The translations under genes were made by a program, and so were the position numbers. From Lachnospiraceae bacterium (GTDB lineage Bacteria > Bacillota > Clostridia > Lachnospirales > Lachnospiraceae), in assembly GCA_022781925.1 (NCBI GenBank), contig JALESO010000001.1:1-61513 (forward strand): a stretch of DNA of 61,513 nt, read 5' to 3'. Each line of letters opens with the position of its first letter. Positions within the stretch are counted from its first letter, which is position 1. The notes under the pieces were generated by a model, which was not told the origin of the DNA, ran no database searches, and worked only from the letters and a program-made list of their open reading frames with translations. This document shows positions 11,580 to 51,076 of the stretch, piece by piece.

Positions 11580-11655
11580 TGCCTTGGCTGCGTTTAGGTG
11601 GCTGAATGTAAGTCATGGCTATTGATTTAGATGGCTAAACGACAGGTTATGAATG

Positions 11656-11723
11656 GAACTCTGGAGATTTTGTCCCGGACGCTAACAATCGCTTTCCGGG
11701 AAAAAATATCCAGAGTTCTTTTT
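11656..11723 (+). terminator. Nested-hairpin terminator, copy A (conserved core GCTAACAATCGC)
   Basis: Outer stem GAACTCTGGA/TCCAGAGTTC (11656-11665, 11709-11718), A/T-rich interval, inner stem TCCCGGA/TCCGGGA (11673-11679, 11695-11701), and an apical loop carrying GCTAACAATCGC (11681-11692). TTCTTTTT follows. The same core is found in two other hairpins in this window (20572-20583 on the minus strand, 25816-25827) whose stems are different. Confidence 0.8.
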
Positions 11724-11907
11724 CAATGTTGTGAAGGTTAAACAAATTCAGATAGTGTATGAAAAGCAGGAAAAATATTCTAATTATTTTTTTAGGAACA
11801 TTATTGACGAAATGCTAATAGTTGAGTATGCTACAAAGAGGAAAACAGGCGATATCCTGTTGGTGTGGCTGACACCTAAAATCCGAAATGAAAGCCGAAT
11901 GATGATC

Positions 11908-11985
11908 GGAGAGTTGGCAGGCAACAGAAAAACCTGAAAGCAAAGCCAGACATATGAGCTGGAGAGTTGGCGGACAACAGAAAAA
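11908..11985 (+). repeat. Degenerate 53-bp direct repeat downstream of pgi
   Basis: GGAGAGTTGGCAGGCAACAG (11908-11927) recurs as GGAGAGTTGGCGGACAACAG (11961-11980), both followed by AAAAA and period 53 bp. The 672-bp gap 11580-12251 holds copy A of the nested hairpin, this repeat and the hairpin at 11995-12034. A 68-aa GTG-started frame at 11731-11937 has no ribosome site or family similarity and is not called. Confidence 0.5.
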
Positions 11986-11994
11986 TCAGTCTGT

Positions 11995-12034
11995 AAGGGA
12001 GATGCACAATGCTGAGGTATTGTAATCTCCCTTT
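11995..12034 (+). terminator. Intergenic hairpin with T-rich tail
   Basis: AAGGGAGAT pairs with ATCTCCCTT over 9 bp, with an inner ACAAT/ATTGT pair, followed by TAAATTTTTAT. It would end any transcript passing through the pgi downstream repeats. Confidence 0.55.
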
Positions 12035-12251
12035 AAATTTTTATAGATATAGAAAAAGTTGCCAGTTACCATTTATTTATTTTGAGTTTTGCGTTAATAT
12101 AGCATTTGTGAAATATTCAAATCGAATATATGTGAGATTTGATGCATAATTCTGTTCGGCGAAAGCAGACAGATTTTTTCAGATTTACTGTACATCTTTG
12201 TGGAATAGAAAACTGAGAGTGTATAAAATAATTACGGAAAGGAAGATTAAT

Positions 12252-12635
12252 ATGAGTCTGATAAAAGGAATTCATCATGTGGCATTGAAATGCTGTGGCA
12301 AAGAGGAGTTTGAGAAAACAAAACAGTTTTACGGTGAGGTGCTTGGACTTCCGGTGACAAGAAGCTGGGAGGGCGGCATTATGTACGATACCGGAGCCGG
12401 TCTGATGGAGATTTTTGAGACGGAGGAGACTCCGCTGGAGACAGGAACGATCCGTCATTTTGCATTTGCTGTGGAGAATACGGATGCCTGTGTGGAAGCG
12501 GTTCGTACTGCCGGGTATGAGGTGTTTGTGGAGCCGAAGGATATCGAGATCGCATCTGAGATTCCGTTCCCGGCGCGTATTGCGTTCTGCCGTGGACCGG
12601 TTGGCGAAGAGATTGAGTTTTTCCATGAAAAATAA
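12252..12635 (+). CDS. VOC-superfamily (glyoxalase-like) protein
   Basis: A 127-aa single-domain member of the vicinal-oxygen-chelate fold with two beta-alpha-beta-beta-beta modules. The first is IHHVALKCCG...TKQFYGEVLGLPV (about 7-35) and the second is IRHFAFAVENTDACVEAVRTAG (about 67-88) through EEIEFFHEK. Candidate metal ligands are His8 or His9, Glu51 (GLMEIFE), His69 and Glu121. Related small proteins are lactoylglutathione lyase-like or epimerase-like; the substrate cannot be told. ATG 12252 has GGAAAGGAAG upstream. It opens a three-gene unit with the antiporter (24-bp gap) and radical SAM genes. Confidence 0.82.
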   Translation: MSLIKGIHHVALKCCGKEEFEKTKQFYGEVLGLPVTRSWEGGIMYDTGAGLMEIFETEETPLETGTIRHFAFAVENTDACVEAVRTAGYEVFVEPKDIEIASEIPFPARIAFCRGPVGEEIEFFHEK

Positions 12636-12659
12636 AGAGATACAGGAGGAAATGCATTC

Positions 12660-13979
12660 GTGAGAAAAGGGAGAGCGATTGCGTTATTACCGATCGCAGT
12701 TTTTCTGGTTCTGTATCTGGGACTTGGTATTTTATTTGAATATATTATGAAGATTCCAATGGGATTTTATAATGTACCGATAGTGTTTGCTTTTTTAGTG
12801 GCGATCCTTGTGGCCTGTCTGCAGAACCGCAAGGTCAGTTTTGATGAAAAACTTGGCATTATGGCGCAGGGGCTGGCGGACAAAAATATTATCACAATGC
12901 TGCTGATCTTTCTGACAGCAGGTGTGTTTGTCGGCGTGGTTGGCCGCAGCAGTGCGGAGAGCGTGGCATATTTTATGCTGTCCATCATTCCGGCACGGTT
13001 TTCGGTAGCCGTTTTATTTGGTGTGGCATGTTTTGTGTCTCTGGCCATGGGAACTTCTGTGGGAACGATCACGCTTCTGACACCGATTGCGGTGGCAGTG
13101 TCGAGCGCTTCCGGTTTTGGACTGCCGCTTTGCGTGGCATCTGTCATGGGCGGTTCCATGTTTGGTGATAATCTGTCTTTTATTTCGGATACGACGATTG
13201 CAGCCTGCAATGGACAGGGATGTGAGATGAAGGACAAGTTCCGGGAGAATTTCTGGATTGCGCTTCCGGCGGCGGTTGCGACGTTACTTCTGATTTTGAT
13301 TCTGTCCTTCCGGACGGACATTTCCGGAACCGTGACAGAGAGTTATCATCTGCTTCAAATCGTGCCGTATATTCTGGTGCTGATCGGTGGAATCATCGGT
13401 GTCAACGTGTTTGTGGTACTGCTGATTGGAATTGTGTCCGGTGCGGTCATTATGCTGGCGGCGGGACATATCAGTCCGGCGGATCTGCTGGCGAATGTCG
13501 GAAACGGTGCTTCCGGGATGTTTGAGACCTGTATGGTGGCGATCCTTGTGGCAGCGCTTTGTGCATTGATCCGGGAATATGGCGGATTTGATGCATTATT
13601 GGCAGGCATCCATAAGGTGTTCAAAGGAAAAAGAGGCGGTCAGCTTGGTATGGGACTGCTGGTTGGCGCCATGGATGTGGCGACTGCAAATAATACCGTA
13701 GCTATCGTTATGGCAAATCCGATTGCAAAAGAAATGGCAGAGGAATACGGCATTACACCGCGAAAGACAGCGTCGATTCTGGACACGTTTTCCGCAGTTT
13801 CGCAGGGAATTATCCCCTATGGTGCGCAGATGCTGGTGGCAATTTCCGCGGCGCATGAACTGGGATACGATCTGTCGGCATTTCAAATCATGCCGAAGCT
13901 GTTTTATCCGATTCTGCTGCTGTTCAGTTCACTGGTATTTATATTTTTAGTGCCGCAGAAGGAAAGAAGAGACATATGA
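12660..13979 (+). CDS. Na+/H+ antiporter, NhaC family
   Basis: A 439-aa inner-membrane transporter with about eleven hydrophobic spans; the family exchanges Na+ (or an organic acid) for H+. The diagnostic segment is SMFGDNLSFISDTTIAACNG (about 166-185) with the following GCEMKDKFREN loop. GTSVGTITLLTPIAVAVSS and a late VATANNTVAIVMANPIA region with charged residues inside the membrane also fit the B. subtilis YuiF-like branch. It starts with GTG at 12660, 11 nt after AGGAGG. Its stop overlaps the radical SAM start (ATGA at 13976-13979), so the two are coupled. The ion or substrate is not proven. Confidence 0.88.
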   Translation: MRKGRAIALLPIAVFLVLYLGLGILFEYIMKIPMGFYNVPIVFAFLVAILVACLQNRKVSFDEKLGIMAQGLADKNIITMLLIFLTAGVFVGVVGRSSAESVAYFMLSIIPARFSVAVLFGVACFVSLAMGTSVGTITLLTPIAVAVSSASGFGLPLCVASVMGGSMFGDNLSFISDTTIAACNGQGCEMKDKFRENFWIALPAAVATLLLILILSFRTDISGTVTESYHLLQIVPYILVLIGGIIGVNVFVVLLIGIVSGAVIMLAAGHISPADLLANVGNGASGMFETCMVAILVAALCALIREYGGFDALLAGIHKVFKGKRGGQLGMGLLVGAMDVATANNTVAIVMANPIAKEMAEEYGITPRKTASILDTFSAVSQGIIPYGAQMLVAISAAHELGYDLSAFQIMPKLFYPILLLFSSLVFIFLVPQKERRDI

Positions 13980-14845
13980 ATTACGAAGGAATGATTTACC
14001 GTCCGCCAAGCGAGGCATACAGTCTAATTTTGCAGGTGACGGTGGGATGTGCGCACAACAGCTGCACATTCTGTACGATGTACAAGGAAAAAAGCTTTCA
14101 TGTAAAGCCTTTGCGTGAAGTGGAAGAGGATTTGAGAGAAGCCCGAAGTTATTACGGAAACCGCAGCCTGCGGATCTTTCTGGCAGACGGGGATGCACTG
14201 GTGCTTTCACAGGAAAAACTGTGTACGATCTTACGTCTGTGCAGACAGTATTTTCCGAAGGCAGAGCGTATTACTTCTTATGGAACCGCACAGGATATTT
14301 TGCGGAAATCAAAAGAGGAACTTCAGGAGTTACATGAACTTGGTCTGGATATGATCTATCTGGGTGCAGAATCCGGAAGCCCGGAAATTTTGGAACATAT
14401 CCACAAAGGTGTGACAGTGGAGGAATATGTGAAGGCAGCGGAGCGGCTGCGCGGAACCGGGGTCCGGCTCAGCGTGACGCTGATCTCCGGTCTTGGCGGG
14501 CAGAAAATGCTGGAAGAACATGCGATTGCATCGGCAAAATTAATTACAGCCATGAAACCGGATTATCTGGGATTTCTGACACTGCTTCTGGAGCCGGGGG
14601 CACCGATGCTGCAGGAAGTAAAATTCGGTGCGATGCAGCTTCTGACACCGGCGCAGGTGCTGGAGGAGATGGAGCTGTTTTTAACACATGTGGATTCGGA
14701 AGGAACCGTATTTCGTTCCAATCACGCTTCTAATTATATTTCCCTGGCGGGCAATCTGAACCGGGACATTCCGGCGATGCTGGAGAAAATTCAGAAAAGC
14801 AGGGAGCGGGACGCATTTAAAAACGAGTCTATGCGTAGACTGTAA
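13976..14845 (+). CDS. Radical SAM protein, B12-independent YgiQ/HemN-like group
   Basis: A 289-aa S-adenosylmethionine radical enzyme. The cluster motif is CAHNSCTFC (residues 23-31), a CX4CX2C spacing seen in this subgroup instead of the usual CX3CX2C. It is followed by MYKEKSFHVKP, the SAM-binding FLADGDALV and the LGAESGSPEIL strand of the TIM barrel. No extra domain is visible, so substrate and reaction are unknown. It overlaps the antiporter by 4 bp and is followed 25 bp later by a strong terminator, so it closes this operon. Confidence 0.87.
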   Translation: MNYEGMIYRPPSEAYSLILQVTVGCAHNSCTFCTMYKEKSFHVKPLREVEEDLREARSYYGNRSLRIFLADGDALVLSQEKLCTILRLCRQYFPKAERITSYGTAQDILRKSKEELQELHELGLDMIYLGAESGSPEILEHIHKGVTVEEYVKAAERLRGTGVRLSVTLISGLGGQKMLEEHAIASAKLITAMKPDYLGFLTLLLEPGAPMLQEVKFGAMQLLTPAQVLEEMELFLTHVDSEGTVFRSNHASNYISLAGNLNRDIPAMLEKIQKSRERDAFKNESMRRL

Positions 14846-14870
14846 ATAAGAAAAACTGAATAAAATATTG

Positions 14871-14911
14871 TATGGCAGGAAAATTTTTCAAATTTCCTGT
14901 CATATTTTTTT
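14871..14911 (+). terminator. Rho-independent terminator after the radical SAM gene
   Basis: TATGGCAGGAAA pairs with TTTCCTGTCATA, one mismatch, followed by seven T residues. It separates the antiporter operon from the pilus locus. Confidence 0.85.
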
Positions 14912-14939
14912 GACTTTCTGCATATAAATTACCTAGAAA
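14910..14939 (+). promoter_or_regulatory. Possible promoter of the FCT-like pilus locus
   Basis: TTGACT (14910-14915), an 18-bp spacer and TAGAAA (14934-14939), about 60 bp before the first pilus gene. The -35 overlaps the terminator T-tract. The -10 is weak, so either expression is low or an activator is needed. Confidence 0.35.
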
Positions 14940-14999
14940 TAAAAGTGGAACTTTGGGTTACAGGGAATCCGGCTTTATTTCGGGAATGGAGATGGTGGA

Positions 15000-16973
15000 A
15001 TGCGAAGAAAATTCAAAAGACCTCTCACATTTTTACTGGCGTTGCTGCTCCTTTTTTCACTGACCGGGGCATCTGTACAGGCAGAAGAATCTGCGCAAGC
15101 AGGTATTTCTGATTATATGCAGACGGTTGTGATGCAGGAGGATGGTACGCAGAAAGAAGATGATGTGGGAGCGACTGCATCCACGGAAGAAAACGTGCAA
15201 CAGGAGATACCGGAGATAAGTGCGAAGGAGCTGCAACAGGAAGAATCCCAAAAAGAACAGAGTGATAAGACGGATGGAAACGATGCTTTGCAGGAAAAAA
15301 TATCTTCCGAGAATCAAACAGGTGAAACTGTGAATGATTCAGATGAAGAAAAAGATGCACAGAATGCAGCAGAAGCAGATTTATCTGAGACAGAAAATGC
15401 AGATGCTTCAAATGCAGGAACGTATGAAGGTGATATATCTGAAAGGGTATCATCGGGAGTAACGGCTCAGTTGCAGGATGTATCTGGAACATCAGCAACG
15501 GTGGAACCGCAGGCGGCAGGCAGCATCACAGTCGCCATTCAGGATGACATCGAGAATACCGGCACATTGACAGCACAGCTGACCGGTGATGCACCGAATG
15601 GTATTACACTGGAATGGTACAAACATGCGGAAGGGGGCAATACCTGGACAAAGGTGGAACGCCATAAGGTGACCGGTGATTTTTACAACGTGTCTGAGGA
15701 TGGAAGCGCACTGAATGTGGCACTGGATAAAGGTGCCCGCTGTTACTATAAGGTTCAGGTAAAGGATGCTTCCGGTCAGCTGCTGGCGGAATCTGCAGCA
15801 CTTCAGGTCAGCTACTACAATCAGTTGGAAAATGGTGATTTCGAGACACCGGCTACCACAAAGAATACCGGTTATCAGCCGTTCTATTCCAATGGGACCC
15901 CGGGGTTGATATGGAAAACCACTGCCTCGGATGCAGAGATTGAGTATGTCAGTGCTGCCACAGATAAGTATGATAAAAATACCGGAAAGACGCATGCACA
16001 GCAGTCCCAGGATTGGCATAAGGTGGAAGCAGCAGCCAGTGGAACACAGTTTGCAGAGTTGAATGCAAACGAACCGGGAGCCTTGTATCAGGATGTACTG
16101 ACCACGCCCGGAGCAAAGCTGTACTGGAAGCTTTATCATCGGGGACGAGGCACAACAGCCTATGACAACACGCAGACAGATACTATGTATGTGCTGATCA
16201 TGTCCACGAAGCTGGCAAAACAGTACAACGTAGATAATCAGACAGCAGTGCAGGATGTTATCACGAATGTACGGAACAGCACCGGGAAATATCCGGGAGC
16301 ATCTGTGGCCACGATTACGGATGACAATGTGCAGTGGTATTACCATGCAGGAGACTATGATGTCAGTGAAAATCAGTATCTGACCCGGTTTTTCTTTGTA
16401 GCGGGTGCAACTGCTTATGATGGAAGTGGGGACACAAGTGCAAAAAAAGGAACGGTTGGTAATCATCTGGATAATGTGTCTTTCAGTGAGACGTTGCCGG
16501 ATCCGAACCCGGATACCGGACATCTGCAGATCACAAAAACCGTGCGTGGACTGTCGGAGGACAATGCAGCCTCTTACAGTCTGCAGCTGAAGATCACAGC
16601 ACCGGACCAGAAGGTAAAGACGGTAACGTTACATCAGTTCAGCCGGAATGAGGACGGCTCCTATTCCTGCACATACACGGAGACAAATGTTGCGGCAGGA
16701 ACGTATCGGATCGAAGAGATTCTGCCTTCCGGCCTGCCGGATTATCGGGTGGATTCCACCTTTAACGGCGAAGAGGCAACGAAAGGAAATGTCACGGTGC
16801 AGGATCAGAAAACAGCTACAGCTGAGATCGTAAACACATACACTTACGATATTGTATTGCCGCCAACCGGTATCTCGGGGGCAGCCGTTCCGATGGCAGT
16901 CCTGGTCGTGACAGCATTTGGAGCGGGCACGGCATATCTGATTTTTTTCAGGCGGAGAAAACTGTTTCGCTGA
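15000..16973 (+). CDS. Sortase-anchored tip adhesin of the FCT-like pilus (Cpa position)
   Basis: A 657-aa secreted surface protein. Residues 1-28 are a signal peptide (SLTGASVQA). Residues 30-165 are an acidic Gln/Glu/Asp-rich linker and 170-270 an Ig-like strand-rich domain. Residues about 278-500 resemble a jelly-roll carbohydrate-binding domain (LENGDFETP opening, FAELNANEPGALYQ, closing LDNVSFSE). Residues 510-620 are a Cna-B-like domain (HLQITKTVRG ... YRIEEILPSGLPDY), followed by the sorting signal LPPTG, a membrane span and RRRK. It stands where cpa lies in streptococcal FCT loci, and LPPTG resembles the VPPTG motif of Cpa. It has no Cys-Gln thioester domain, so binding would be lectin-like. 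The ligand is unknown. Confidence 0.85.
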   Translation: MRRKFKRPLTFLLALLLLFSLTGASVQAEESAQAGISDYMQTVVMQEDGTQKEDDVGATASTEENVQQEIPEISAKELQQEESQKEQSDKTDGNDALQEKISSENQTGETVNDSDEEKDAQNAAEADLSETENADASNAGTYEGDISERVSSGVTAQLQDVSGTSATVEPQAAGSITVAIQDDIENTGTLTAQLTGDAPNGITLEWYKHAEGGNTWTKVERHKVTGDFYNVSEDGSALNVALDKGARCYYKVQVKDASGQLLAESAALQVSYYNQLENGDFETPATTKNTGYQPFYSNGTPGLIWKTTASDAEIEYVSAATDKYDKNTGKTHAQQSQDWHKVEAAASGTQFAELNANEPGALYQDVLTTPGAKLYWKLYHRGRGTTAYDNTQTDTMYVLIMSTKLAKQYNVDNQTAVQDVITNVRNSTGKYPGASVATITDDNVQWYYHAGDYDVSENQYLTRFFFVAGATAYDGSGDTSAKKGTVGNHLDNVSFSETLPDPNPDTGHLQITKTVRGLSEDNAASYSLQLKITAPDQKVKTVTLHQFSRNEDGSYSCTYTETNVAAGTYRIEEILPSGLPDYRVDSTFNGEEATKGNVTVQDQKTATAEIVNTYTYDIVLPPTGISGAAVPMAVLVVTAFGAGTAYLIFFRRRKLFR

Positions 16974-16992
16974 AAAAAATGCGGATGAATCA

Positions 16993-17070
16993 GGCAGGTA
17001 GCATTTCATAAGGACAATGACAGAAAAGCTGAATCGGGCAGATAGCATTTGGTAAAGACAATGAATGAAA
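16993..17070 (+). repeat. 44-bp-period direct repeat between tip adhesin and sipA-like genes
   Basis: A 34-bp unit at 16993-17026 (GGCAGGTAGCATTTCATAAG and onward) is repeated at 17037-17070 (GGCAGATAGCATTTGGTAAA and onward) with about six differences. It lies in the only sizeable gap between the first two pilus genes. Role unknown; it may be a duplication that changed the sipA translation region. Confidence 0.6.
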
Positions 17071-17098
17071 AAAGGAAAAATGGAAGAAGTATAACGAT

Positions 17099-17671
17099 GT
17101 GGAAGAGATTTTGAGAAGTAGAAGAAATGGAAGGAAAGGAAACAGAAATAGTAAGCGTTCCATGCGCCCGGTTTCTGAAAGCCTGCGCGGGCAGTGGCGG
17201 TGGTTTCTGATCCGTCTGCTGATCCTCATTGGCATTTTATATGTGCTGTTTGGCTGCATATTTGGAATCACCACAGTCAAAAACGAGGATATGGCTCCGC
17301 GGATCAGCGCCGGAGATCTGGTGCTGTATTATCGCCTGGATAAAAAACCGGTGGCAGGGGATGTCATAATCTGTAAAAAAAATGGGAAGCAGTATGTGGG
17401 ACGCGTTGTTGGGAAAGGAGGCGATTCGGTAGAGGTCACAGAGGAAGCAACGGTAAAAGTCAATGGAAGTATTGTGCTGGACCAGAATATTTTTTATGAG
17501 ACACCGCAGTATGAGAGCGAGGTGAAATACCCGCTGCAGCTGCAGGAGGGAGAATGCTTTATTCTGGGAGATCACCGGGAAGGTGCGACAGACAGCCGCT
17601 ATTTTGGCGCGGTGGATACACAGGAGATAAGAGGAAAAATCATCACCGTCATACGACGGAATCAGTTATAA
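17099..17671 (+). CDS. SipA-like inactive signal peptidase (pilus assembly factor)
   Basis: This 190-aa protein has the type I signal peptidase fold: a basic N-terminus, one membrane anchor (about 36-57) and boxes B to E. Box E (LGDHREGATDSRYFG) is intact. The catalytic Ser of box B is Asp64 (KNEDMAPRI instead of SMxP), and the catalytic Lys of box D is Gly101 (QYVGRVVG instead of YVKRVVG). It therefore should not cleave peptides. From memory, S. pyogenes SipA, needed for pilus assembly but not a protease, has the same Ser-to-Asp and Lys-to-Gly changes. The GTG start at 17099 follows GGAAGAAG. The gene lies directly before the shaft pilin, as sipA does in FCT loci. Confidence 0.87.
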   Translation: MEEILRSRRNGRKGNRNSKRSMRPVSESLRGQWRWFLIRLLILIGILYVLFGCIFGITTVKNEDMAPRISAGDLVLYYRLDKKPVAGDVIICKKNGKQYVGRVVGKGGDSVEVTEEATVKVNGSIVLDQNIFYETPQYESEVKYPLQLQEGECFILGDHREGATDSRYFGAVDTQEIRGKIITVIRRNQL

Positions 17672-17687
17672 AGGAAGGTAAAAGAGT

Positions 17688-18785
17688 ATGAAAAATAGAG
17701 TGATCGGATGTGTATCTGCAATGACAATGGCAGGAGTAATGGCTTTTGGAGGATTTCAGGTTCCGGCAATGGCAGCCACCGGGGACAACGATGGAGTAAT
17801 CCAGTTCCAGAAAGTGTTGGAAATGCAGAATGCAGCAGGTGCCAGCGTACCAGATGTGACCTATACTTATACGATTGTTCCGGGAACCGGAATCGGAGCG
17901 ACAGCCACTTCACCGGAGGTCAAACCGGGTGTCGGTACACCGACTGTTTCGGATGTATCTTACACAAATGCAGATACGATCACAGCGCAGGAAGTGGCAA
18001 AAACCGGATCCATTACATTCCCGGAGGGAACCTTTACCGCACCGGGTATTTACCGCTATGTACTGACGGAAAGTGCAAACTCAAATACCGATATCACCGA
18101 TGTAGACGGCAATGTACGATATGTGGATGTCTATGTGGTAAATGATGATGTAAACGGCGGCTACAAAATCAATGCTTCCGTATTTACCGAGGCGGCCGTG
18201 ACACCGACCTTTGATGAGAATAACCGGGCACAGTACGGTGACAAAAACGATGAGATCACAGATAAGTATCAAACCTATGAGCTGAGTCTGGATAAGGTCG
18301 TTGAAGGAAATATGGGTGACAAGAACCGTAAATTTAATTTTACGATCAACTTCAGTGGCCCTGCGAATGCATCGTTTACCTTTGGCGATGAGACCGTTAC
18401 GCTGGATGGCAGAGGAAACGGTTCTGTGAGCCTTGCACTGTCACATACAGATGTAGCTGCGGAGATCACAGGTATTCCGTCCACGGTTACTTATACGGTG
18501 ACAGAGAACCTGAACAGCTCGGAAGGTTATGATACTGGTTTTGCGGTAGCAAAAGGAACTGGTGCTGCTCAGACAGTGGCAAAAGATGAGACTGCAAGTG
18601 ATGCTACGAAAGTGACGGCAACGGAGCAGACCATGACAAAAGCAGACAATGCGGTAACGGTAACCAATACCCGTGTAACCCCATCTCCGACCGGTGTAAT
18701 GCTGAGTGTGACACCGTATGCGTTACTGGCAGGTTTGGCTTCTGCCCTGGGTGCGCTGTTCTTTCGCAGAAAAAAATTATCTTAA
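17688..18785 (+). CDS. FctA-like major shaft pilin
   Basis: A 365-aa secreted pilin with a signal peptide ending AMA (about residue 29). Two FctA-type isopeptide domains follow: about 37-165 (VIQFQKVLEMQN ... GIYRYVLTES) and about 195-325 (YELSLDKVVEGNMGDKNRKF ... VTYTVTENL). Each has the strand Lys and Glu expected for internal Lys-Asn bonds. The sorting signal is PSPTG (xxPTG rather than LPxTG), then a hydrophobic span and RRKK. Streptococcal T-antigen pilins likewise carry an xVPTG motif read by a class B-type pilus sortase, and such a sortase gene follows here. A GGAAGG ribosome site precedes the ATG. Confidence 0.88.
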   Translation: MKNRVIGCVSAMTMAGVMAFGGFQVPAMAATGDNDGVIQFQKVLEMQNAAGASVPDVTYTYTIVPGTGIGATATSPEVKPGVGTPTVSDVSYTNADTITAQEVAKTGSITFPEGTFTAPGIYRYVLTESANSNTDITDVDGNVRYVDVYVVNDDVNGGYKINASVFTEAAVTPTFDENNRAQYGDKNDEITDKYQTYELSLDKVVEGNMGDKNRKFNFTINFSGPANASFTFGDETVTLDGRGNGSVSLALSHTDVAAEITGIPSTVTYTVTENLNSSEGYDTGFAVAKGTGAAQTVAKDETASDATKVTATEQTMTKADNAVTVTNTRVTPSPTGVMLSVTPYALLAGLASALGALFFRRKKLS

Positions 18786-18863
18786 GCAGTCAAAATGGAA
18801 TCGACAGGAAACGGAAGAGTTAAAAAAGCAGCATCAGAACATGAAAAAGAACAGTGATATAAA

Positions 18864-19718
18864 ATGACAGGAAGCAGGGAATTACAAACAAAAACGAAAC
18901 AACTGGAAAAAGTAAAGATGCAGAATGTGGATGCAGAAGCATCAGACAGCCGCAGAATAACAATTGCAGAAAAGCTGCTACGGTTTGCGAACCGTGCGCT
19001 GAGCATTTTCGCAGCCTGCCTTATGGCGGTACTGTTTCTGTATGGAGGCTATTCGTTATGGGATACCTGGCGCATTTATCACAGTGCTTTTGTGGATGAT
19101 GAACTGATGAAACTGAAACCTGTAAAGGGGGAGGATACCAATCCCTCTTTACAGGATCTGCAGAACATCAATGCAGATGTCTGTGCCTGGCTGACGATTG
19201 ATGATACCAGCATCGATTATCCGGTGGTCCGTGGAAAAGACGATATGGAATATGTCAACAAAGATGTCTACGGCAATTTTGCACTGTCCGGATCTGTTTT
19301 TCTGCGCAGTGCAAATCAGCCGGATTTCTCGGATCCGTATAATCTGATCTACGGACACCATATGAGCAACGGAGCCATGTTTGGTGATGTGGTGGAATTT
19401 ACGGACGAGGCATATTTTGCGGCACATCAGACCGGTACGTTGTATCTGCCGGAAGAAACCAGAGCAATCACAATCTTTGCCTGTGTGGAGACCGATGCCA
19501 CAGACAGTCAGATTTATGGCTATATCGCAGAGCCGGATACCGCCGGTCTGATGCAGCAGCTTCTGGCCTATGTGCAGGAGCATGCCGTGCAGTATCGGGA
19601 TGTCGGGGTGACAGCGGATGACTCCATTGTGGCATTGTCCACCTGCGCAGAGTCTGCCACAAACGGAAGGGTGGTGTTATTCGGAAAAATGGAAAGGAGG
19701 TGCGGGAGAAACACATGA
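18864..19718 (+). CDS. Class B sortase (pilus polymerase of the FCT-like locus)
   Basis: A 284-aa membrane-anchored transpeptidase that would join the shaft pilins. One span lies at about 43-64. The class B domain runs from about 95 (NPSLQDLQNINADVCAWL) and includes IDYPVVRG, IYGHHM with catalytic His165, STCAE with nucleophile Cys261 and NGRVVLFG with Arg269. The class B form is telling: only FCT-type pili use a SrtB-like enzyme as pilus polymerase, whereas most Gram-positive pili use class C. It overlaps the next gene by 4 bp (ATGA). Confidence 0.92.
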   Translation: MTGSRELQTKTKQLEKVKMQNVDAEASDSRRITIAEKLLRFANRALSIFAACLMAVLFLYGGYSLWDTWRIYHSAFVDDELMKLKPVKGEDTNPSLQDLQNINADVCAWLTIDDTSIDYPVVRGKDDMEYVNKDVYGNFALSGSVFLRSANQPDFSDPYNLIYGHHMSNGAMFGDVVEFTDEAYFAAHQTGTLYLPEETRAITIFACVETDATDSQIYGYIAEPDTAGLMQQLLAYVQEHAVQYRDVGVTADDSIVALSTCAESATNGRVVLFGKMERRCGRNT

Positions 19719-20470
19719 AACAGAAAGATATGAGCCGGACAAAAGGGATGCAGTACAAATCCGGGAAACTGGATTATGGGATTGTTGAAAAGATCAGTGA
19801 GAGTAAAAAACGAGGCGTCCTGCTGCTGGCGCTGGTTCTGACATTCTGGTTTGTTCTGCTGACAGCACTGCCTGTCCTGGCAGCGGAGAGAACCTGCATG
19901 GTATCTGTTCCGGTGTCGGTACAGCTGACAGGAACTGCAGGCAGCGGACAGACACAGAATACTCCGGTTTTTACCGTGGTAATGGAAGCTGAAAATGACC
20001 GGAAGGAGCTTCCCATGCCGGAGCAGAACCAGATACAGATCGGAGCGAATGGGAGCGGAACATTCGACTCCATTCTGTATACAACGCCGGGGGATTATCA
20101 GTATCGGATCCGCCAGATCGCCGGAAATGATCAGGATATCGTGTATGATACCACAGAATACGATGTGACCGTGCGTGTCCTGAATGCGGAAGACGGCGGG
20201 CTGGAAGCAGAGGTGTGGGCGATAAAGCCCGGACAGTCAGAGAAGCAGAGCAGGATTGTTTTCCGGAATGAGTGGAAAACAGCGACGACACCGGGAACTG
20301 TGCAGGAACCGGTACAGACCGGTACCACAACCACGACGACTACTATGCGGACACCAAAAACCGGTGATATGCAGAATCCGACACTTTACGTGATTGTAAT
20401 GATCATTGCAGCCGGAACAGCTATCGGTGTTAGTTTATATCGTAAGTATAAAAAGAAAGAAGAACTGTAA
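19715..20470 (+). CDS. FctB-like minor (basal) pilin
   Basis: A 251-aa protein with a signal or anchor span at about 33-55 (GVLLLALVLTFWFVLLTALP, ending VLAA). One FctA-type domain follows at about 60-200 (CMVSVPVSVQLTG, TPGDYQYRIRQ, YDVTVRVLNAE). A Thr-rich linker (TGTTTTTTTMRTPK), a TPKTG sorting motif, a hydrophobic span and a KKKEEL tail end it. In FCT loci the small last pilin anchors the fibre to the wall. ATG 19715 is coupled to the sortase stop; AAGGAGG lies 14 nt upstream, so the GTG at 19700 directly after it is unlikely. It ends the locus, and a nested hairpin follows. Confidence 0.82.
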   Translation: MKQKDMSRTKGMQYKSGKLDYGIVEKISESKKRGVLLLALVLTFWFVLLTALPVLAAERTCMVSVPVSVQLTGTAGSGQTQNTPVFTVVMEAENDRKELPMPEQNQIQIGANGSGTFDSILYTTPGDYQYRIRQIAGNDQDIVYDTTEYDVTVRVLNAEDGGLEAEVWAIKPGQSEKQSRIVFRNEWKTATTPGTVQEPVQTGTTTTTTTMRTPKTGDMQNPTLYVIVMIIAAGTAIGVSLYRKYKKKEEL

Positions 20471-20545
20471 AGGTTCAGGAGAAAACAGTAATATTTGCAG
20501 AGTGTTAATAAGCGGTCTCGATAAAAAGATTTATGTGTAGATAAA

Positions 20546-20608
20546 GAAAAAGGAAGCACTTTCCCTGGAAGGCGATTGTTAGCCGACAGGGTAAGTGCTT
20601 CCTTTTTC
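20546..20608 (-). terminator. Nested-hairpin terminator, copy C (between convergent genes)
   Basis: A perfect 16-bp outer stem GAAAAAGGAAGCACTT/AAGTGCTTCCTTTTTC encloses CCCTG/CAGGG and the core GCGATTGTTAGC (20572-20583), the reverse complement of GCTAACAATCGC. The core therefore reads on the minus strand, in line with yitT. A- and T-tracts on both flanks should let it terminate both the pilus operon and yitT. Confidence 0.82.
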
Positions 20609-20647
20609 GATTTACAAAACCTACCGAGATAACGAGAGAACACATGC

Positions 20648-21526
20648 TCAATCGTTCGGCTTATAATAGAAATGTCCAAACAGCCGCTCGGTTTTCACCA
20701 CATTGATAAAGGCATTCGGATCCGCTTCCTTCACCGCTTTCCGGACTTTTTTACTCTCAGCGCTGGAGACCACAGAGTACACCACCTGGCGTTCCGTGTG
20801 TTCATAAGGACCCTCGCCATCCAGGATCGTGGCACCGTGATTGGTCGCTTTTGATATGGCCTGATATACCTGTTCTCCATGATTGGTGACGATGAAAAAT
20901 GTCTCCTGCTGATATTTTTTATACAGCGCATGCAGTACCTGAGTGGATGCAAACTGGAAAATAATGGAGTAGAGCGCCTTGTCCCATCCAAACATAAATC
21001 CGGCTGCCACCAGAATGACAGCATTCAGTCCGAGAATGATATTAAAGGCATCCATGCCTTTTTTCTCTGACAGATAGATGGAGATGAAATCAGTTCCCCC
21101 GGTGGTGGAACCCATCAGCAGACAGAGACTGATGGCAAAACCATTGATGATGCCGCCGAAGATACTGATCAGCAGTACATCTGAGGTGATGGCGATGCCC
21201 GGGATCACATCCGTAAGCACACTGGTCAGCACAATGCACAGACAGGAGTAAAGGGTAAATTTTTTCCCGATAAAACGAAATCCAATGTAAATCGGAATCG
21301 CATTCAGGATCACGTTGATCACAGTATAAGGGAGCGCCAGTCCGAGGTACATCTGGGCACCACGCTGGATCAGCAGGGAAAGTCCGGTAGCGCCGCCCGG
21401 ATACAGACCGCCGGTGCGGACAAAGGACTTGATATTCAATGCCATCAGCACAGAGGCGAGGCATACGACCAGAAGCCGTTTCAGATCTTTTTTTAAATCA
21501 AATTTCAAAATAAATTCCTCCTTCAT
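20648..21526 (-). CDS. YitT-family membrane protein
   Basis: A 292-aa member of the YitT family, found throughout Firmicutes with unknown function. Five or six hydrophobic spans fill residues about 15-200, including the conserved FVRTGGLYPGGATGLSLLIQ and GSTTGGTDFISIYLSEKKGM segments. A cytoplasmic DUF2179 domain (TFFIVTNHGEQVYQAIS to the end) follows, thought to bind a small ligand. Length is typical. It is monocistronic, convergent with the pilus locus, and read on the minus strand behind a GGAGGAATT ribosome site. Confidence 0.9.
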   Translation of the reverse strand: MKEEFILKFDLKKDLKRLLVVCLASVLMALNIKSFVRTGGLYPGGATGLSLLIQRGAQMYLGLALPYTVINVILNAIPIYIGFRFIGKKFTLYSCLCIVLTSVLTDVIPGIAITSDVLLISIFGGIINGFAISLCLLMGSTTGGTDFISIYLSEKKGMDAFNIILGLNAVILVAAGFMFGWDKALYSIIFQFASTQVLHALYKKYQQETFFIVTNHGEQVYQAISKATNHGATILDGEGPYEHTERQVVYSVVSSAESKKVRKAVKEADPNAFINVVKTERLFGHFYYKPND

Positions 21527-21575
21527 ATAGCAAATTCATTATTATACACAGAGAAACATTTTTGTACAGTAAAAG

Positions 21576-22481
21576 TTAAAAATGTTCCGGATGTTCCTGC
21601 ATATATTCCCGGAAAACTTCCAGAAACAGCGGCACCGCCGGATTGGTTATTTCGTGTTCCCATGCAATGGCCAGATCCAGTGTATCGTTGCTTCCATCCA
21701 GCAAAGTGAAAGCCAGATTATTGGCATGCATATAGCTGCGGCTCCGATAAGGCAGAATGGAAATACCGGTACCTGCTTCCACTGCCTGAAGCAGATTTTC
21801 GTACAGATCAAACTGTTCCGTGATGCGGGGATGGAATCCAATCTGCGCACACAACTCCATAATCCGCTGGTTCATATATTTGGCATGATCCGGATGAAAA
21901 ACCAGAAACGGTTCACTGGCCAGCTTGTCATAATCCAGAATCATTTTCTGCAGCGCCGGGTGATCTTTCCGGGTAACCAGACAGAAGGAATCCGACTGGA
22001 TTTTTTTGACATCCAGAGAGGCAATCTGCTGCAGATCCGGCATCATGGAAAAATAGATATCCGCATCCTGACGGGCGGCGGATTCTGAAATCTGCAAAGC
22101 GTCCTGCCGTATCAGCTTGATTTTTACATGCGGATATCGGATGTGGAACTGATTCACGACATCCGGCAAAAACTGATGAGTGGGAGCGGACAGATGACTG
22201 ATGCGCAGTACGGAAGGCTGCTCTTTTGCCAGTGCCAGTTTCTGCTTTGCCTGCTCCATGGCATCCAGAATGGATTTTGCATCTTCGAGAAAGAGCTCGC
22301 CGCTGTCTGTCAGGGTAACTTTTTTTGTATTTCGGACAAAAAGCTCCGTGTCCAGTTCCTTCTCCAGCATTTTGATCTGATGGCTGATGGCGGGCTGGGT
22401 CAGATAAAAATCCTGAGCTGCCCGGGAAAAGTTGCGGTATTTGGCTACGGCAATGAAATAGGCCAGTTGTTTCTGATCCAT
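21576..22481 (-). CDS. LysR-family transcriptional regulator
   Basis: A 301-aa regulator with the LysR winged HTH at 1-60 (YFIAVAKYRNFSRAAQDFYL, then TQPAISHQIKMLEKEL) and a two-lobed effector domain from about 90 on. It is divergent from the flavoprotein/OYE operon, and the 269-bp gap between them contains interleaved inverted repeats. The standard inference is that it activates that operon in response to its substrate and represses itself. The effector is unknown. Confidence 0.92.
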   Translation of the reverse strand: MDQKQLAYFIAVAKYRNFSRAAQDFYLTQPAISHQIKMLEKELDTELFVRNTKKVTLTDSGELFLEDAKSILDAMEQAKQKLALAKEQPSVLRISHLSAPTHQFLPDVVNQFHIRYPHVKIKLIRQDALQISESAARQDADIYFSMMPDLQQIASLDVKKIQSDSFCLVTRKDHPALQKMILDYDKLASEPFLVFHPDHAKYMNQRIMELCAQIGFHPRITEQFDLYENLLQAVEAGTGISILPYRSRSYMHANNLAFTLLDGSNDTLDLAIAWEHEITNPAVPLFLEVFREYMQEHPEHF

Positions 22482-22530
22482 AAGTACCTCCGGTCTGCGT
22501 GTATGCTCACTTTTTTACAGACAAATTATT

Positions 22531-22648
22531 TTGATAAAAATATTTGCATAAATATCATGTCGAAATCAGTTATAAAAAATATTTATCAATTATGCAAAAA
22601 TATCTGAATTTCACAAATGAAAATTCTCATGTTACAATCAATGTAACA
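22531..22648. promoter_or_regulatory. Operator cluster between lysR and the flavoprotein operon
   Basis: There are two interleaved inverted repeats: TTGATAAAAATATT (22531-22544) with AATATTTATCAA (22578-22589), and TTTGCATAA (22543-22551) with TTATGCAAA (22590-22598). A separate palindrome TGTTACA-N5-TGTAACA follows at 22630-22648. The first pair are plausible LysR sites; the last looks like a site for a second regulator near the transcription start. Confidence 0.5.
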
Positions 22649-22670
22649 CAAAAAAGGTTAGGTGTAAACG

Positions 22671-22723
22671 AAAAACATGCAGGCATCAGGCCAGGTACTT
22701 CCCTACCGAAAGGCATGTTTTTT
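22671..22723 (+). promoter_or_regulatory. Leader hairpin with T-tract upstream of the flavoprotein gene
   Basis: AAAACATGC pairs with GCATGTTTT and ends in six T residues, so it is an intrinsic-terminator shape 28 bp before the start codon. The interior (GGCCAGGTACTTCCCTACC) can fold further. This suggests attenuation in the leader. No known riboswitch consensus was recognized. Confidence 0.45.
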
Positions 22724-22750
22724 GGTTGCGATTCAGAAGGAGGAAATGGT

Positions 22751-23698
22751 ATGGCATTTCAGGTTATGGGAGTTACTGCAGGAAGAAAAAACAGTAATTC
22801 AGAAATTTTATTAAAAGAGGCACTGCTTGTCTGTCAGGAGATGGGGGCAGAGGTTCGGATGATCAATTTAAAGGATTACAACATCATTGACTGTAACGGA
22901 TGCACATCCTGCACCATGGGTATGTCCATGGGAAAATATACCGGATGTTCCCTGGATGATGCCGATGACAAAAAGAAGATCATGGATGTGATGCTGAATC
23001 AGGATGCGGTTATTTTTTCCGCACCGACGTATGATCTCATGCCGTCATCTTTATTTTTGAAATTTATGCACAGAAATCTTGCATATGAATCTGCATTTTT
23101 GACAAAGATCGGAGCAATCGAACCGAGAGACCGTGTCGGCGCACTGATCGCAGTGGGCGGTTCTACCCGTTCCTGGCAGTCCATGGCACTTGAGTGTATG
23201 CAGGCGACCACATTTACAAACAGTTTCAAGATTGTAGATATGTATATGGCCACACAGGTTCCGGCACCGGGGCAGGTTCTGTTATATGATGAAAAAATTG
23301 CCCGCGCAAGAGAAATTGGCAAAAATGTTATGGAAGCGCTGAAGACGAAACCGGAAGAGCGGAAATGGCTGGGTGACCCGGATTATGGATGGTGTCCGAA
23401 CTGTCACAGCAATTCACTGTGTCTGGGTGAACCGCAGTGGAAAGGCCTGCAGTATCCGATTGAGTGTACCGTATGTGGTGCAGGCGGAGATCTGGAGCGT
23501 ACCCCGGATGGTAAATGGAAATTTGTCATTGCGGCAAACGGATTGGAGCGTGACCGTACTACGGAGGAAGGCCGAGGTGTGCACTGTGACGAGATTGCAG
23601 AGACCCAGGGAGGATTTTTCATGGATCCGAAGAAACGGGAAGAAGTTGCGGCAAAACTGCCAAAATACAAAGAACTGAAATTCCCGGAACTGGATTAA
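22751..23698 (+). CDS. Iron-sulfur flavoprotein (NADPH-dependent FMN reductase family)
   Basis: A 315-aa flavodoxin-like reductase. The FMN-binding start VMGVTAGRKNSNSEILL is followed by a cysteine cluster CNGCTSC (residues 53-59) and a later Cys near 71. The rest of the flavodoxin fold includes IFSAPTYDLMPSSLFLKFMH and ALIAVGGSTRSW. A C-terminal zinc-ribbon-like module carries WCPNCH and ECTVCG. ATG 22751 has AAGGAGG upstream; the frame is open further 5' but that part overlaps the leader hairpin. It probably supplies electrons to, or acts with, the OYE-type enzyme 34 bp downstream. Substrate unknown. Confidence 0.8.
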   Translation: MAFQVMGVTAGRKNSNSEILLKEALLVCQEMGAEVRMINLKDYNIIDCNGCTSCTMGMSMGKYTGCSLDDADDKKKIMDVMLNQDAVIFSAPTYDLMPSSLFLKFMHRNLAYESAFLTKIGAIEPRDRVGALIAVGGSTRSWQSMALECMQATTFTNSFKIVDMYMATQVPAPGQVLLYDEKIARAREIGKNVMEALKTKPEERKWLGDPDYGWCPNCHSNSLCLGEPQWKGLQYPIECTVCGAGGDLERTPDGKWKFVIAANGLERDRTTEEGRGVHCDEIAETQGGFFMDPKKREEVAAKLPKYKELKFPELD

Positions 23699-23732
23699 TT
23701 CGATATTATTTTGAAGAAAAGGAGCAAAAATT

Positions 23733-25751
23733 ATGGCATTCACACATTTATTAAGCCCGATGAAAGTCGGCAACAAAGTTTACAAAAATCGTATCGTAAG
23801 TGCACCGATGGCATTCAGTCTGGTAGCACAGAATCCGATGGCAGCAGAGGTTTCTTATCGAAAATTGGAAGGACCTGCAAAGGGCGGAAATGCCTGTGTT
23901 ATTCTTGGTGAGACAGATGTCAACTTCCGTGATGCAGTACGTATCCCGGGATTCAAACCATTTGACTTTGCAAAACCGGAAGAGGATATGGATACATTCA
24001 ATGCGGTAAAAACATATGCAGACCGCATCAAAAAACATGACTGTATCGCACTGGCAGAGCTGGTTCACTGCGGAAAAGAGAAAGTTCCGTTTAACGATCA
24101 GCAGGAAGCCATCGGGCCGGTGGCCTGTACAAACTCCGCTGGAGTTCCGGTGCGTGCAATGACAAAAGATGACATGGATCGTATTGCAAATGATTTTGCG
24201 GTGGCTGCCACTTATATGCAGAAAGCAGGGTTTGACGGAATCCTGATCCACGGCGGACATGGATTTATTTTTACACAGTACCTTTCCCCGTTGATGAATA
24301 CACGTACCGATGAGTATGGCGGATCTCTGGAGAACCGCGCAAAATTCCCGATTCAGATCTGCAAATCCATTCGTGAAGCAGTGGGACCGGATTTCCTGAT
24401 CGAGCTTCGTATCGATGGAACGGATCATCAGCCGGGCGGAATCACACCAGAGGAGACTGGAAAATTCATTCAGATGGTAGAGCAGTATATCACATCCGTA
24501 CATGTTACCTGCGGTATTTACGAGGAGTCTGTAAAATCCGGTACAGAGTCCAGTATGTTCCATGAGCACGGACTGAATATTGAGCCAGCATCTATTATTA
24601 AAAAATATACTTCTCTGCCGGTTGGAGCAGTTGGCGGTATCAACTCTCCGGAGCAGGTGGATCAGGCGATTGCAGATGGCAAGATCGACTTCGCAATTTT
24701 CGGACGTCAGATGCTGGCAGATCCGGAGTTTGCACAGAAATGCATGGATGGCGATGAGGCACAGATCCGCCGTTGTTTAAGATGCTACAAATGTTTCCCG
24801 GGATCTCCGGAGGAAGGCTATGACGACCTGCCATTCAACAGTGAACAGCTGGCGGTATATGTAGGTCACTGTACCATTAACCCGATGGCACATCTGCCAT
24901 TTGACATTGAGCAGCTTCCGCCAGCCGAAAAAGGTTCTCAGAAAGTGCTGATCGTAGGTGGTGGTATCGCAGGTATCCAGGCAGCCATTACAGCGGCAGA
25001 GCGTGGACATAAAGTGACACTGGCTGAGAAATCAGACAAACTGGGCGGACTTCTGTATTTCACAGATGTAGATATCGACAAACCGGATCTGCGCAATTTC
25101 AAGGACATGATGATCCGTGAAGTAAAACGTCACGATGTGGAAATTCTCATGAATACAGAAGTGACACCGGAATTTATCAGAGAATTTGCACCGGATGCAG
25201 TAATCCTTGCAACCGGTTCTGTTCCGGCATGCCCGCCGATCAACGGTATTGAACATGCACATCAGGCAATGTCTGTATACGATGGAACCTGTGAGCCGGG
25301 CAAAAAAGTAGTCATGATCGGCGGCGGTCTGGTTGGCTGCGAGACAGGACTTTATCTGCAGAAAACCGGTCATGAGGTAACCGTAGTAGAGATGCTCGAC
25401 CGTGTGGCAAACGAGTCCTTCGGTATGTACCGCGAGGCACTTGTCTGGGAGATGGAGAAAAATCATATGACCATACTTCCGAAAACAAAATGTCTGGAGA
25501 TCACACCAAACAGCGTGAAGATTGAAAATGCAGACGGTGTACAGGAACTTGAGGCTGATACCGTACTGTATGCGCTTGGTATGAAATCTGTGGATTACAG
25601 TGCACTGAAAGAAGCTGCCGGTGATGCAAGTGTATTTGTCATCGGTGATGCGATCCATCCGGGCAAAGTAGATCAGTGTACAAGAACCGGTTATATCGCA
25701 GCTCTGAAAGTCGGTGCAAGTGAGGAATCCGTGGCTTATATCCAGGAGTAA
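23733..25751 (+). CDS. Old Yellow Enzyme / 2,4-dienoyl-CoA reductase-type oxidoreductase
   Basis: A 672-aa multidomain flavoenzyme. Residues 1-345 are an FMN TIM barrel (LVHCGKEK, IHGGHGFIFTQYLSPLMN, YGGSLENRAKF). Next comes a 4Fe-4S motif CLRCYKC (about 350-356) with a further Cys at about 381, then an FAD/NAD(P) domain with GGGIAGIQAAITAAERGHKV and GGGLVGCETGLYLQKTGHEV. This family reduces C=C bonds of enoates, dienoyl-CoA, bile-acid or plant-phenolic intermediates in gut anaerobes. It is co-transcribed with the flavoprotein and probably LysR-controlled. The active-site HGGH is the ordinary OYE pattern, not the HGDR I recall for the bilirubin reductase BilR. Substrate unassigned. Confidence 0.87.
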   Translation: MAFTHLLSPMKVGNKVYKNRIVSAPMAFSLVAQNPMAAEVSYRKLEGPAKGGNACVILGETDVNFRDAVRIPGFKPFDFAKPEEDMDTFNAVKTYADRIKKHDCIALAELVHCGKEKVPFNDQQEAIGPVACTNSAGVPVRAMTKDDMDRIANDFAVAATYMQKAGFDGILIHGGHGFIFTQYLSPLMNTRTDEYGGSLENRAKFPIQICKSIREAVGPDFLIELRIDGTDHQPGGITPEETGKFIQMVEQYITSVHVTCGIYEESVKSGTESSMFHEHGLNIEPASIIKKYTSLPVGAVGGINSPEQVDQAIADGKIDFAIFGRQMLADPEFAQKCMDGDEAQIRRCLRCYKCFPGSPEEGYDDLPFNSEQLAVYVGHCTINPMAHLPFDIEQLPPAEKGSQKVLIVGGGIAGIQAAITAAERGHKVTLAEKSDKLGGLLYFTDVDIDKPDLRNFKDMMIREVKRHDVEILMNTEVTPEFIREFAPDAVILATGSVPACPPINGIEHAHQAMSVYDGTCEPGKKVVMIGGGLVGCETGLYLQKTGHEVTVVEMLDRVANESFGMYREALVWEMEKNHMTILPKTKCLEITPNSVKIENADGVQELEADTVLYALGMKSVDYSALKEAAGDASVFVIGDAIHPGKVDQCTRTGYIAALKVGASEESVAYIQE

Positions 25752-25787
25752 GTCTTGCTTGTGTGACTGAAAAATATAGTTCTATGA

Positions 25788-25856
25788 GGAGAAATCCGTC
25801 AGTTTTGTCTCAGTGGCTAATAATCGCTCCCTGAGAAAAAACTGACGGATTTCTCC
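25788..25856 (+). terminator. Nested-hairpin terminator, copy B (core GCTAATAATCGC)
   Basis: A perfect 19-bp outer stem (25788-25806 with 25838-25856) encloses TCTCAG/CTGAGA and an apical loop with GCTAATAATCGC (25816-25827). It follows the OYE gene by 36 bp. The remaining 25857-26053 is AT-rich with a short GC-rich patch near 25930; no gene or clear promoter is seen there. Confidence 0.82.
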
Positions 25857-50821: not shown

Positions 50822-50990
50822 GTTGTGTGAAAACATGACGGTGCGTAATCGCAAGATTACAAAATTGCCGAAGACAGCAGGTGCCATTAAGGCATAAACG
50901 CAGAACCTGCCGAGGGAATTTACAAAACAGATGAATGTTTATGTAAAAAGAATTTTCTCCCTCTGTCTGCGTGGCAGAGGGATTTTTTAT
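50822..50990 (+). promoter_or_regulatory. Ribosomal protein L10 leader with attenuator
   Basis: The 5' UTR of rplJ contains the L10-leader hallmarks GCCGAAGACAGCAGGTGCC (50872 on) and CGCAGAACCTGCCGAGGG. The intrinsic terminator CCCTCTG/CAGAGGG with six T residues follows (50958-50989). L10, alone or with L7/L12, binds such leaders and stops transcription when in excess. It fills the 307-bp gap before rplJ. Confidence 0.85.
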
Positions 50991-51076
50991 GTAGCATGGA
51001 AAGTGACTGCTTCCTATGTGAATGGATTCCCGTTTTCGTCTGAGGAAACAAAATTTAAGAAGGAGGTGCACGATTC

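Follow-up and report, generated by a model that had tools for sequence, protein, structure and literature searches.

The stretch of DNA analysed here (the window, i.e. all 61,513 nucleotides of the analysed part of contig JALESO010000001.1 from a Lachnospiraceae bacterium) carries three nested hairpins, copies A, B and C, which share a 12-nt core at their tip and belong to a family of hairpins dispersed in this genome. The analysis points to a previously unrecognised hairpin family with spreading copies and a tip that something may read. In the window, (i) copy A (11656..11718, forward strand) consists of variable arms at 11656-11665 and 11709-11718 and of a constant inner stem ATTTT / AAAAT and TCCCGGA / TCCGGGA, with the tip core GCTAACAATCGC at 11681..11692 (forward strand) and a left flank (11639..11655, forward strand) that contains the family motif GGTTATGAA at 11645-11653; the gene upstream (9999..11579, forward strand) encodes a protein of 526 aa, provisionally called pgi in a preliminary description of this DNA; (ii) copy C (20546..20608, reverse strand), with the tip core GCTAACAATCGC at 20572..20583 (reverse strand), lies 3' of a yitT-like gene (20648..21526, reverse strand; YitT family, PF02588 and PF10035); (iii) copy B (25788..25856, forward strand), with the tip core GCTAATAATCGC at 25816..25827 (forward strand), lies 3' of an NADH:flavin oxidoreductase gene (23733..25751, forward strand; Oxidored_FMN and Pyr_redox, old-yellow-enzyme type). 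The cores, located by pattern search and genome scan, have the same orientation as these genes and lie 101 nt (A), 64 nt (B) and 64 nt (C) 3' of the stop codons.

Folding against shuffled sequences agrees with the positions previously given for the three hairpins and with a core at the tip (z-scores of -7.4 for A, -9.0 for C and -11.2 for B; 0/200 equally stable shuffles), and the outer stems of 10 bp (A), 19 bp (B) and 16 bp (C) are perfect, as had been claimed. A search of the window for the core, including the two-mismatch level, gave 9 matches, namely 3 exact ones, all in A, B and C, and 6 with two mismatches; at this level shuffled windows gave a mean of 7.3 matches, comparable to the 9 observed. 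In the comparison with Rfam 15 that the preliminary description had suggested, no family matches the hairpins at the gathering threshold: in the window only a distant leader of ribosomal protein L10 was found, and at 12 further loci nothing. Around A and B, the sub-threshold matches, to models of microRNAs and of other families, scored far under the cut-offs.

Copy number, anatomy and relatedness

Genomes are designated as follows: G000 is the genome of the window (an assembly of 2.93 Mb in 85 contigs, 91% complete), G009 and G012 are two close species, G005 is another species of the same genus and G385 belongs to another genus. The exact core GCTAAYAATCGC is present 64 times in G000 (30 forward, 34 reverse), where about 0.7 matches are estimated by chance. 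A control with the pattern read backwards gave 19 matches in G000, which are probably the same elements, because a C before the core (19/60 copies) makes the reversed pattern match too. Four of the 64 exact cores, with 20-nt flanks identical to those of another copy, were dropped, and the remaining 60 copies form the study set. At least 12 of 18 arm positions are paired in 59 of these 60 copies, versus 4-11 in a set of 13 cores that occur by chance in other genomes, so the core does not occur outside hairpins as often as within them. This measure of stem depth replaced a weak core-only test of tip folding, which 59/60 copies pass but in which shuffled flanks also give a mini-hairpin (85/180). 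Furthermore, a genome-wide search with a covariance model (R1), of the kind proposed in the preliminary description, returned 107 rows at E<=10, which merge into 85 places, 81 of them hairpins at E<=1.1e-6. Further copies are thus abundant, both as exact cores and as model matches. Scaffold gaps (N) lie in or beside such hairpins in the G009 stretches L180, L187 and L189, and in G000 and G012 the ends of several contigs lie within 400 nt of a tip hairpin; in view of these gaps and contig ends, copy numbers derived from assemblies are likely too low.

The 59 copies of the covariation alignment (which excludes the second copy of the tandem in L012) align nearly gap-free across the tip and beyond. 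In brief, the unit opens with an A-rich left flank (often GGTTATGAAA), which is followed by about 10-14 nt of variable arm and by ATTTT. Then there is usually a G.A mismatch, followed by TCTC or a similar sequence and by a step with loose pairing. The loop TAAYAATC is bordered by GC on either side, and beyond it come a bulged base, the matching 3' side and a T-rich right flank, often ATTTACG. Paired cells amount to 84.5% of this alignment versus 64.4% in shuffles, and double-change cells to 365 versus 125. A shift of the partner by one column, which is a better control than shuffles since shuffles lose the relatedness of the copies, gave 49-56% paired cells and 133-185 double changes. The shared 12-nt core and the covarying arms, first noticed in three copies, therefore hold genome-wide. 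Covariation with a fixed loop is, on its own, no proof of RNA function. Comparison of orthologues from two close species shows loop changes from TAACAATC or TAATAATC to TAGCAATC and from TAACAATC to CAGTAATC, so the tip is nearly, not wholly, fixed. A likeness of the core to 16S rRNA (GCUAGUAAUCGC), considered as loop mimicry, was dropped as a likely coincidence, since in the 16S rRNA numbering these letters lie across a junction and do not form a loop.

In the 12-nt variable arm, the nearest neighbour lies within 2 mismatches in 25/60 copies, versus about 1.4 in column shuffles, and linkage at 3 mismatches joins copies into groups with 3 to 9 members. The likeness of some copies extends further outwards and takes in an outer complementary pair, which reaches 8 bp or more in 16/60 copies versus 4 in shuffles. 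Because flanks, the constant inner stem and arm sub-families are shared, the copies are, judging from their sequences, diverged duplicates that have drifted under pairing. The preliminary description had called the outer stems unrelated and had set the family apart from simple sequence duplication: the arms do differ widely, but the sub-families share them, and the second statement finds no support, given the shared flanks, inner stem and arm sub-families. Copies can be aligned over their stems in part, that is, within these sub-families.

Distribution, nesting and turnover

Within the genus (20 genomes), exact cores are also present in G012 (60), G009 (12) and G005 (3), and are absent from the other 16 genomes. 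In the family, the exact core occurs in 47/397 genomes, and besides G000 and G009 more than 3 copies are found only in G385 (5). A second covariance model (R2) matched, at E<=0.001, 5/397 genomes of the family, including a false match (G279, where L241 was dropped since the core is absent), and 1/391 class genomes at E<=1e-4, namely G000 itself; both searches used strict filters with 15 candidates scored per genome, and weak copies may have been missed. A match in G066 (L240) is a plausible tip hairpin, but a single one. As regards named genomes, one narrow exact pattern found six stretches, belonging to two Eubacterium ramulus strains, and nothing else. Together with the close identity of the protein upstream of copy A in G009 and G012 (see below), this suggests E. 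ramulus or a close relative as the source of the window. No viral contig carries the extended pattern; a looser pattern gave 15 viral stretches, of which one reached E 0.03 with poor pairing, and these were judged to be chance. A viral scan with the butyrate kinase of G385 found no relative and was uninformative.

Hairpins of G385 and G005 carry the same tip on arms that are quite different. Indeed, 9-15 of 18 arm positions are paired in the eight exact-core copies of these two genomes, versus 4-11 in the 13 chance cores; the G385 copies span this same range, and the lowest lies within the chance range owing to an internal loop. Eight copies in all were found in G385, five of them inside an outer perfect stem of 10-15 bp, whereas an outer stem of at least 10 bp arose in 16/1600 left-flank shuffles. 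Judged by eye, three of these outer stems are terminator-like with a T run (L253, L256, L259), and one (L163) is made up of A and T only. Copies 10 and 42 of G000 are also enclosed by a larger outer stem. In G005, a tip hairpin (L164, at about 900-1060) lies between two co-directional genes, which we take to be pgk and tpiA, and has no T run; with this position and without a T run, it is hardly a terminator.

Turnover between close species was followed at 26 G000 copies with an upstream flank that could be located in 40 G009 stretches, by comparison with 19 primary R1 hits. At these places G009 has the same stem in 9 cases, another sub-family in 1 (copy 13, at the same gene end), none in 12, an assembly gap in 3 and a contig end in 1. 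Among the 12 copies without counterpart, copy 51 corresponds to a degraded remnant, copy 12 comes second in a tandem, and copy 14 belongs to an inverted pair whose other member is retained in G009; the surroundings usually differ too at such places. Of the copies in the window, A has no G009 counterpart, the gene there ending in an unrelated hairpin, and the orthologues of B and C have nearly the same stem, with the loop changed to CAGTAATC in C. G009 and G012 both encode the protein found upstream of copy A, with 98% identity.

Two other repeats were noticed at gene ends and in intergenic regions of G009. The first, a dispersed intergenic repeat with CACTGCGTGCCGC or similar (L186:6721, L186:12317, L187:13195, L189:14049), occurs with or without a tip hairpin before it and is also present behind copy B (window 25933). 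The second is a repeated terminator-like hairpin, GGGCAAATCTGAAGC ... GATTTGCC, located before L186 12317, L187 13195 and L189 14049; it stands once at a gene end where G000 has a tip hairpin (copy 33), and two places hold an assembly gap.

The copy number, the patchy spread within the genus, the shared arms and flanks, the turnover, the occurrence of the tip on different arms, the nesting and the lack of strand preference among mismatches of the variable arm (see below) speak for mobility of the family. Our preferred reading, to which we would give about an even chance of being correct, is that these are short non-coding mobile palindromes, resembling repetitive extragenic palindromic (REP) sequences, which are spreading in a few Lachnospiraceae and have settled at gene 3' ends. 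Alternatively, the copies could be ordinary intrinsic terminators that share their tip through homologous recombination and gene conversion, the tip being a stable loop without a partner. Like intrinsic (Rho-independent) terminators, the family has strong hairpins at the 3' ends of genes, preceded by A-rich and followed by T-rich sequence, and both the different sub-family at the same gene end in G009 (copy 13) and the presence of other dispersed intergenic repeats in the same places would suit gene conversion. It differs from them in its constant inner stem, its 12-nt tip, the internal mismatch and bulge and the often weak T run; a simple consensus terminator scan, which allows no internal mismatch, did not list A, B or C. 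Moreover, a merely stable loop would not be expected to keep 12 letters on quite different arms, and 109 other strong hairpins with A- or T-rich flanks in the G009 stretches (not all of them terminators) have varied tips, the commonest 6-mer occurring 4 times. We consider this alternative unlikely.

Gene ends and the RNA or DNA question

The location at gene 3' ends described for A, B and C applies to most of the family: a same-strand open reading frame (ORF; at least 80 codons, called mechanically, in stretches some of which are only 500 nt long) stops at most 150 nt upstream in 45/60 copies. The stretches read contain such a stop, at whatever distance, for 52 copies, and here the median distance from stop to copy is 64 nt. 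With ORF ends at 150 nt considered on both sides, 29 of the 60 copies are sense only, 16 have ends on both sides, 8 are antisense only and 7 have neither. The orientation with the upstream gene, as stated in the preliminary description, is correct for A, B and C and elsewhere is a bias, not a rule (29 sense-only versus 8 antisense-only copies, p = 0.0008). Several inverted pairs are present, 86-244 bp apart, and in the pairs 7/8 and 21/22 each copy lies 3' of its own gene. The mean T fraction over the 10 nt 3' of the copy is 0.50 in sense-only and 0.44 in antisense-only copies.

These data bear on the main rival explanation, in which the family is a specialised RNA element of 3' untranslated regions (3'-UTRs): the hairpin would form the end of the mRNA, and binding of a protein (or RNA) to its UAAYAAUC loop would lead to protection, processing or termination of the transcript. 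The proximity to same-strand stops, the excess of sense-only copies and the inverted pairs with each copy after its own gene are all as such an element would have them, and so is the strong covariation. The 8/60 antisense-only copies of G000 do not suit it, nor do the copies of G385, where ORF ends within 150 nt are on the opposite strand only in 4/8, on the same strand only in 1/8 and on both in 3/8. Since half of the G385 copies are antisense only and 5/8 lie inside another stem, a mobile DNA palindrome fits at least as well as a 3'-UTR signal. The upstream proteins (49 extracted, 20 scanned) showed no common function among those scanned, one of which is without a Pfam family, and the copy is absent from the close species at 12/22 comparable places, both of which count against a dedicated RNA element.

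Mismatches in the stems bear on the same question, because under selection on the RNA of the core strand G.U should be better tolerated than A.C. The variable arm has G.T and A.C mismatches in nearly equal numbers (43 and 44, versus 75 and 69 under random pairing of the same letters), also in the 28 sense-only copies counted (30 and 27); the 36 cleanest stems, with 9 and 6, have too few to decide. Compared with its complement, the core strand has the higher stability in just 13/59 whole hairpins and in 17/59 when stems are taken alone. Tip-proximal pairs, on the other hand, have 20 G.T versus 4 A.C, as RNA selection would give. The arms therefore give no sign of RNA selection on the core strand, and the tip leaves such selection open. 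The selection on RNA structure proposed in the preliminary description finds no support in the arms; a loop-binding partner, proposed along with it, may exist. An RNA element of this kind is possible, but we regard it as doubtful.

Proposed mobile palindromes and known repeat systems

Passages of PMC3733652 describe REP sequences as numerous intergenic hairpins, single or in inverted dimers, with sub-families that have alternative complementary stem residues and an uneven distribution across strains, and distinguish GTAG and CGTC super-families by an unpaired tetranucleotide at one end of the stem. By the account in PMC8266576, what TnpA-REP enzymes read in REP DNA is the loops and mismatches of the folded single strand. 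As far as these passages go, the present family resembles REP sequences (those associated with TnpA-REP/RAYT transposases) in being a short palindrome with many intergenic copies, singles and inverted dimers, sub-families and uneven spread. It differs in its longer, widely varying arms, in having the tip as the constant part and in its foot, where the 20 nt at the 5' side contain GTAG in 6/60 and CGTC in 2/60 copies; because the tag is absent, membership of the REP super-families is not claimed. Furthermore, unlike in a REP/RAYT system (REPtron), where the transposase gene is flanked by the repeats, no linked tyrosine transposase was found at the Y1 loci read. In these five loci (L225, L228, L231, L232 and L235; three partial G000 Y1 matches were left unread) no core-like hairpin was seen, L228 and L235 having one two-mismatch core match each that was not judged a hairpin. 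A Y1/IS200 transposase was rejected as a candidate partner, its presence showing no clean correlation with that of the hairpin.

ERIC, BOX and other stem-loop repeat families of bacterial genomes are surveyed in PMC2267715, in the part of it used here. By that survey they are, like the present family, non-coding, dispersed and able to fold as stem-loops. A further point of comparison is where conservation falls. ERIC, BOX and the like are generally conserved along their arms, whereas in this family it is the tip that is conserved and the arms that drift. Insertion sequences are known to target REP hairpin loops and group IIC introns to target terminators; the nested insertion would be alike, but the insert here would itself be a short gene-less hairpin. 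By title or abstract start, no published description of such a hairpin family was found, supplements (including the candidates of PMC8040213) lying outside this search; in the text portions covered, one paper, on a cyanobacterial regulator, gives the core string.

The same survey, in the part used, describes the PU-BIME repeats of Escherichia coli as DNA-level sites for gyrase and IHF (PMC2267715), and the hairpins could similarly be binding sites of a chromosome protein that spread by selection and not by mobility. The palindromes, the inverted pairs and the absence of strand preference in the variable arm would suit such sites, but the patchy presence within one genus and the turnover between close species do not suit a general chromosome function, and we consider this explanation quite improbable.

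Several observations weigh against the preferred reading of the family as mobile palindromes. The sense-strand excess, the short distance to the stop codon and the tip-proximal G.T excess are those discussed above, and the first two would fit a 3'-UTR function as well. In the loci searched, by eye, no convincing clean empty site (the same variable arm without core) was found; the nearest core-less twin is a G009 hairpin (L193:5977) with arms 2 mismatches from copy 6, which was not placed, and copy 3 has one gap-like site that cannot be polarised. The butyrate kinase locus in the one genus-mate of G385 among the genomes compared, tried as an empty-site test, was uninformative because its terminator region is unrelated. 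No partner enzyme was found: G000 has two full IS200-size Y1 genes (L225, L235), with no core-like hairpin seen in the stretches read around them, and in G005 (79% complete) no Y1 match was obtained at E<=1e-5.

As for a mechanism of mobile palindromes, the palindrome might settle where gene 3' ends have intrinsic-terminator hairpins, or within the loops of these hairpins. The tip and, beneath it, the mismatch and bulge that are usually present would form the recognition site of a mobilising or recombining enzyme acting on folded single-stranded DNA (or RNA). With recognition at the tip, the arms may drift as long as they still pair. A copy at a gene end could also serve as terminator and would then be tolerated there mostly in the sense direction. 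The boldest form of this reading, which we regard as doubtful, is a new kind of gene-less mobile hairpin that inserts into terminator loops and is mobilised in trans by an enzyme that reads the tip GC-TAAYAATC-GC in folded single strands; terminators would in this way turn into hairpins nested in hairpins, with arms at liberty to drift. A fixed tip on drifting arms is a ready bait for an enzyme or protein that reads it, and about 80 places of one gut bacterium, mostly gene ends, are being rewritten between close species.

Two further features of the window were noted. Downstream of copy A, a 25-nt element GGAGAGTTGGCRGRCAACAGAAAAA is present twice, 53 nt apart (11908-11985, forward strand); the pair, which has no notable Rfam match, could be a tandem structured RNA. 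The ribosomal protein L10 leader mentioned above (RF00557, 82.7 bits) is located at 50850-50997 on the forward strand and is an ordinary one.

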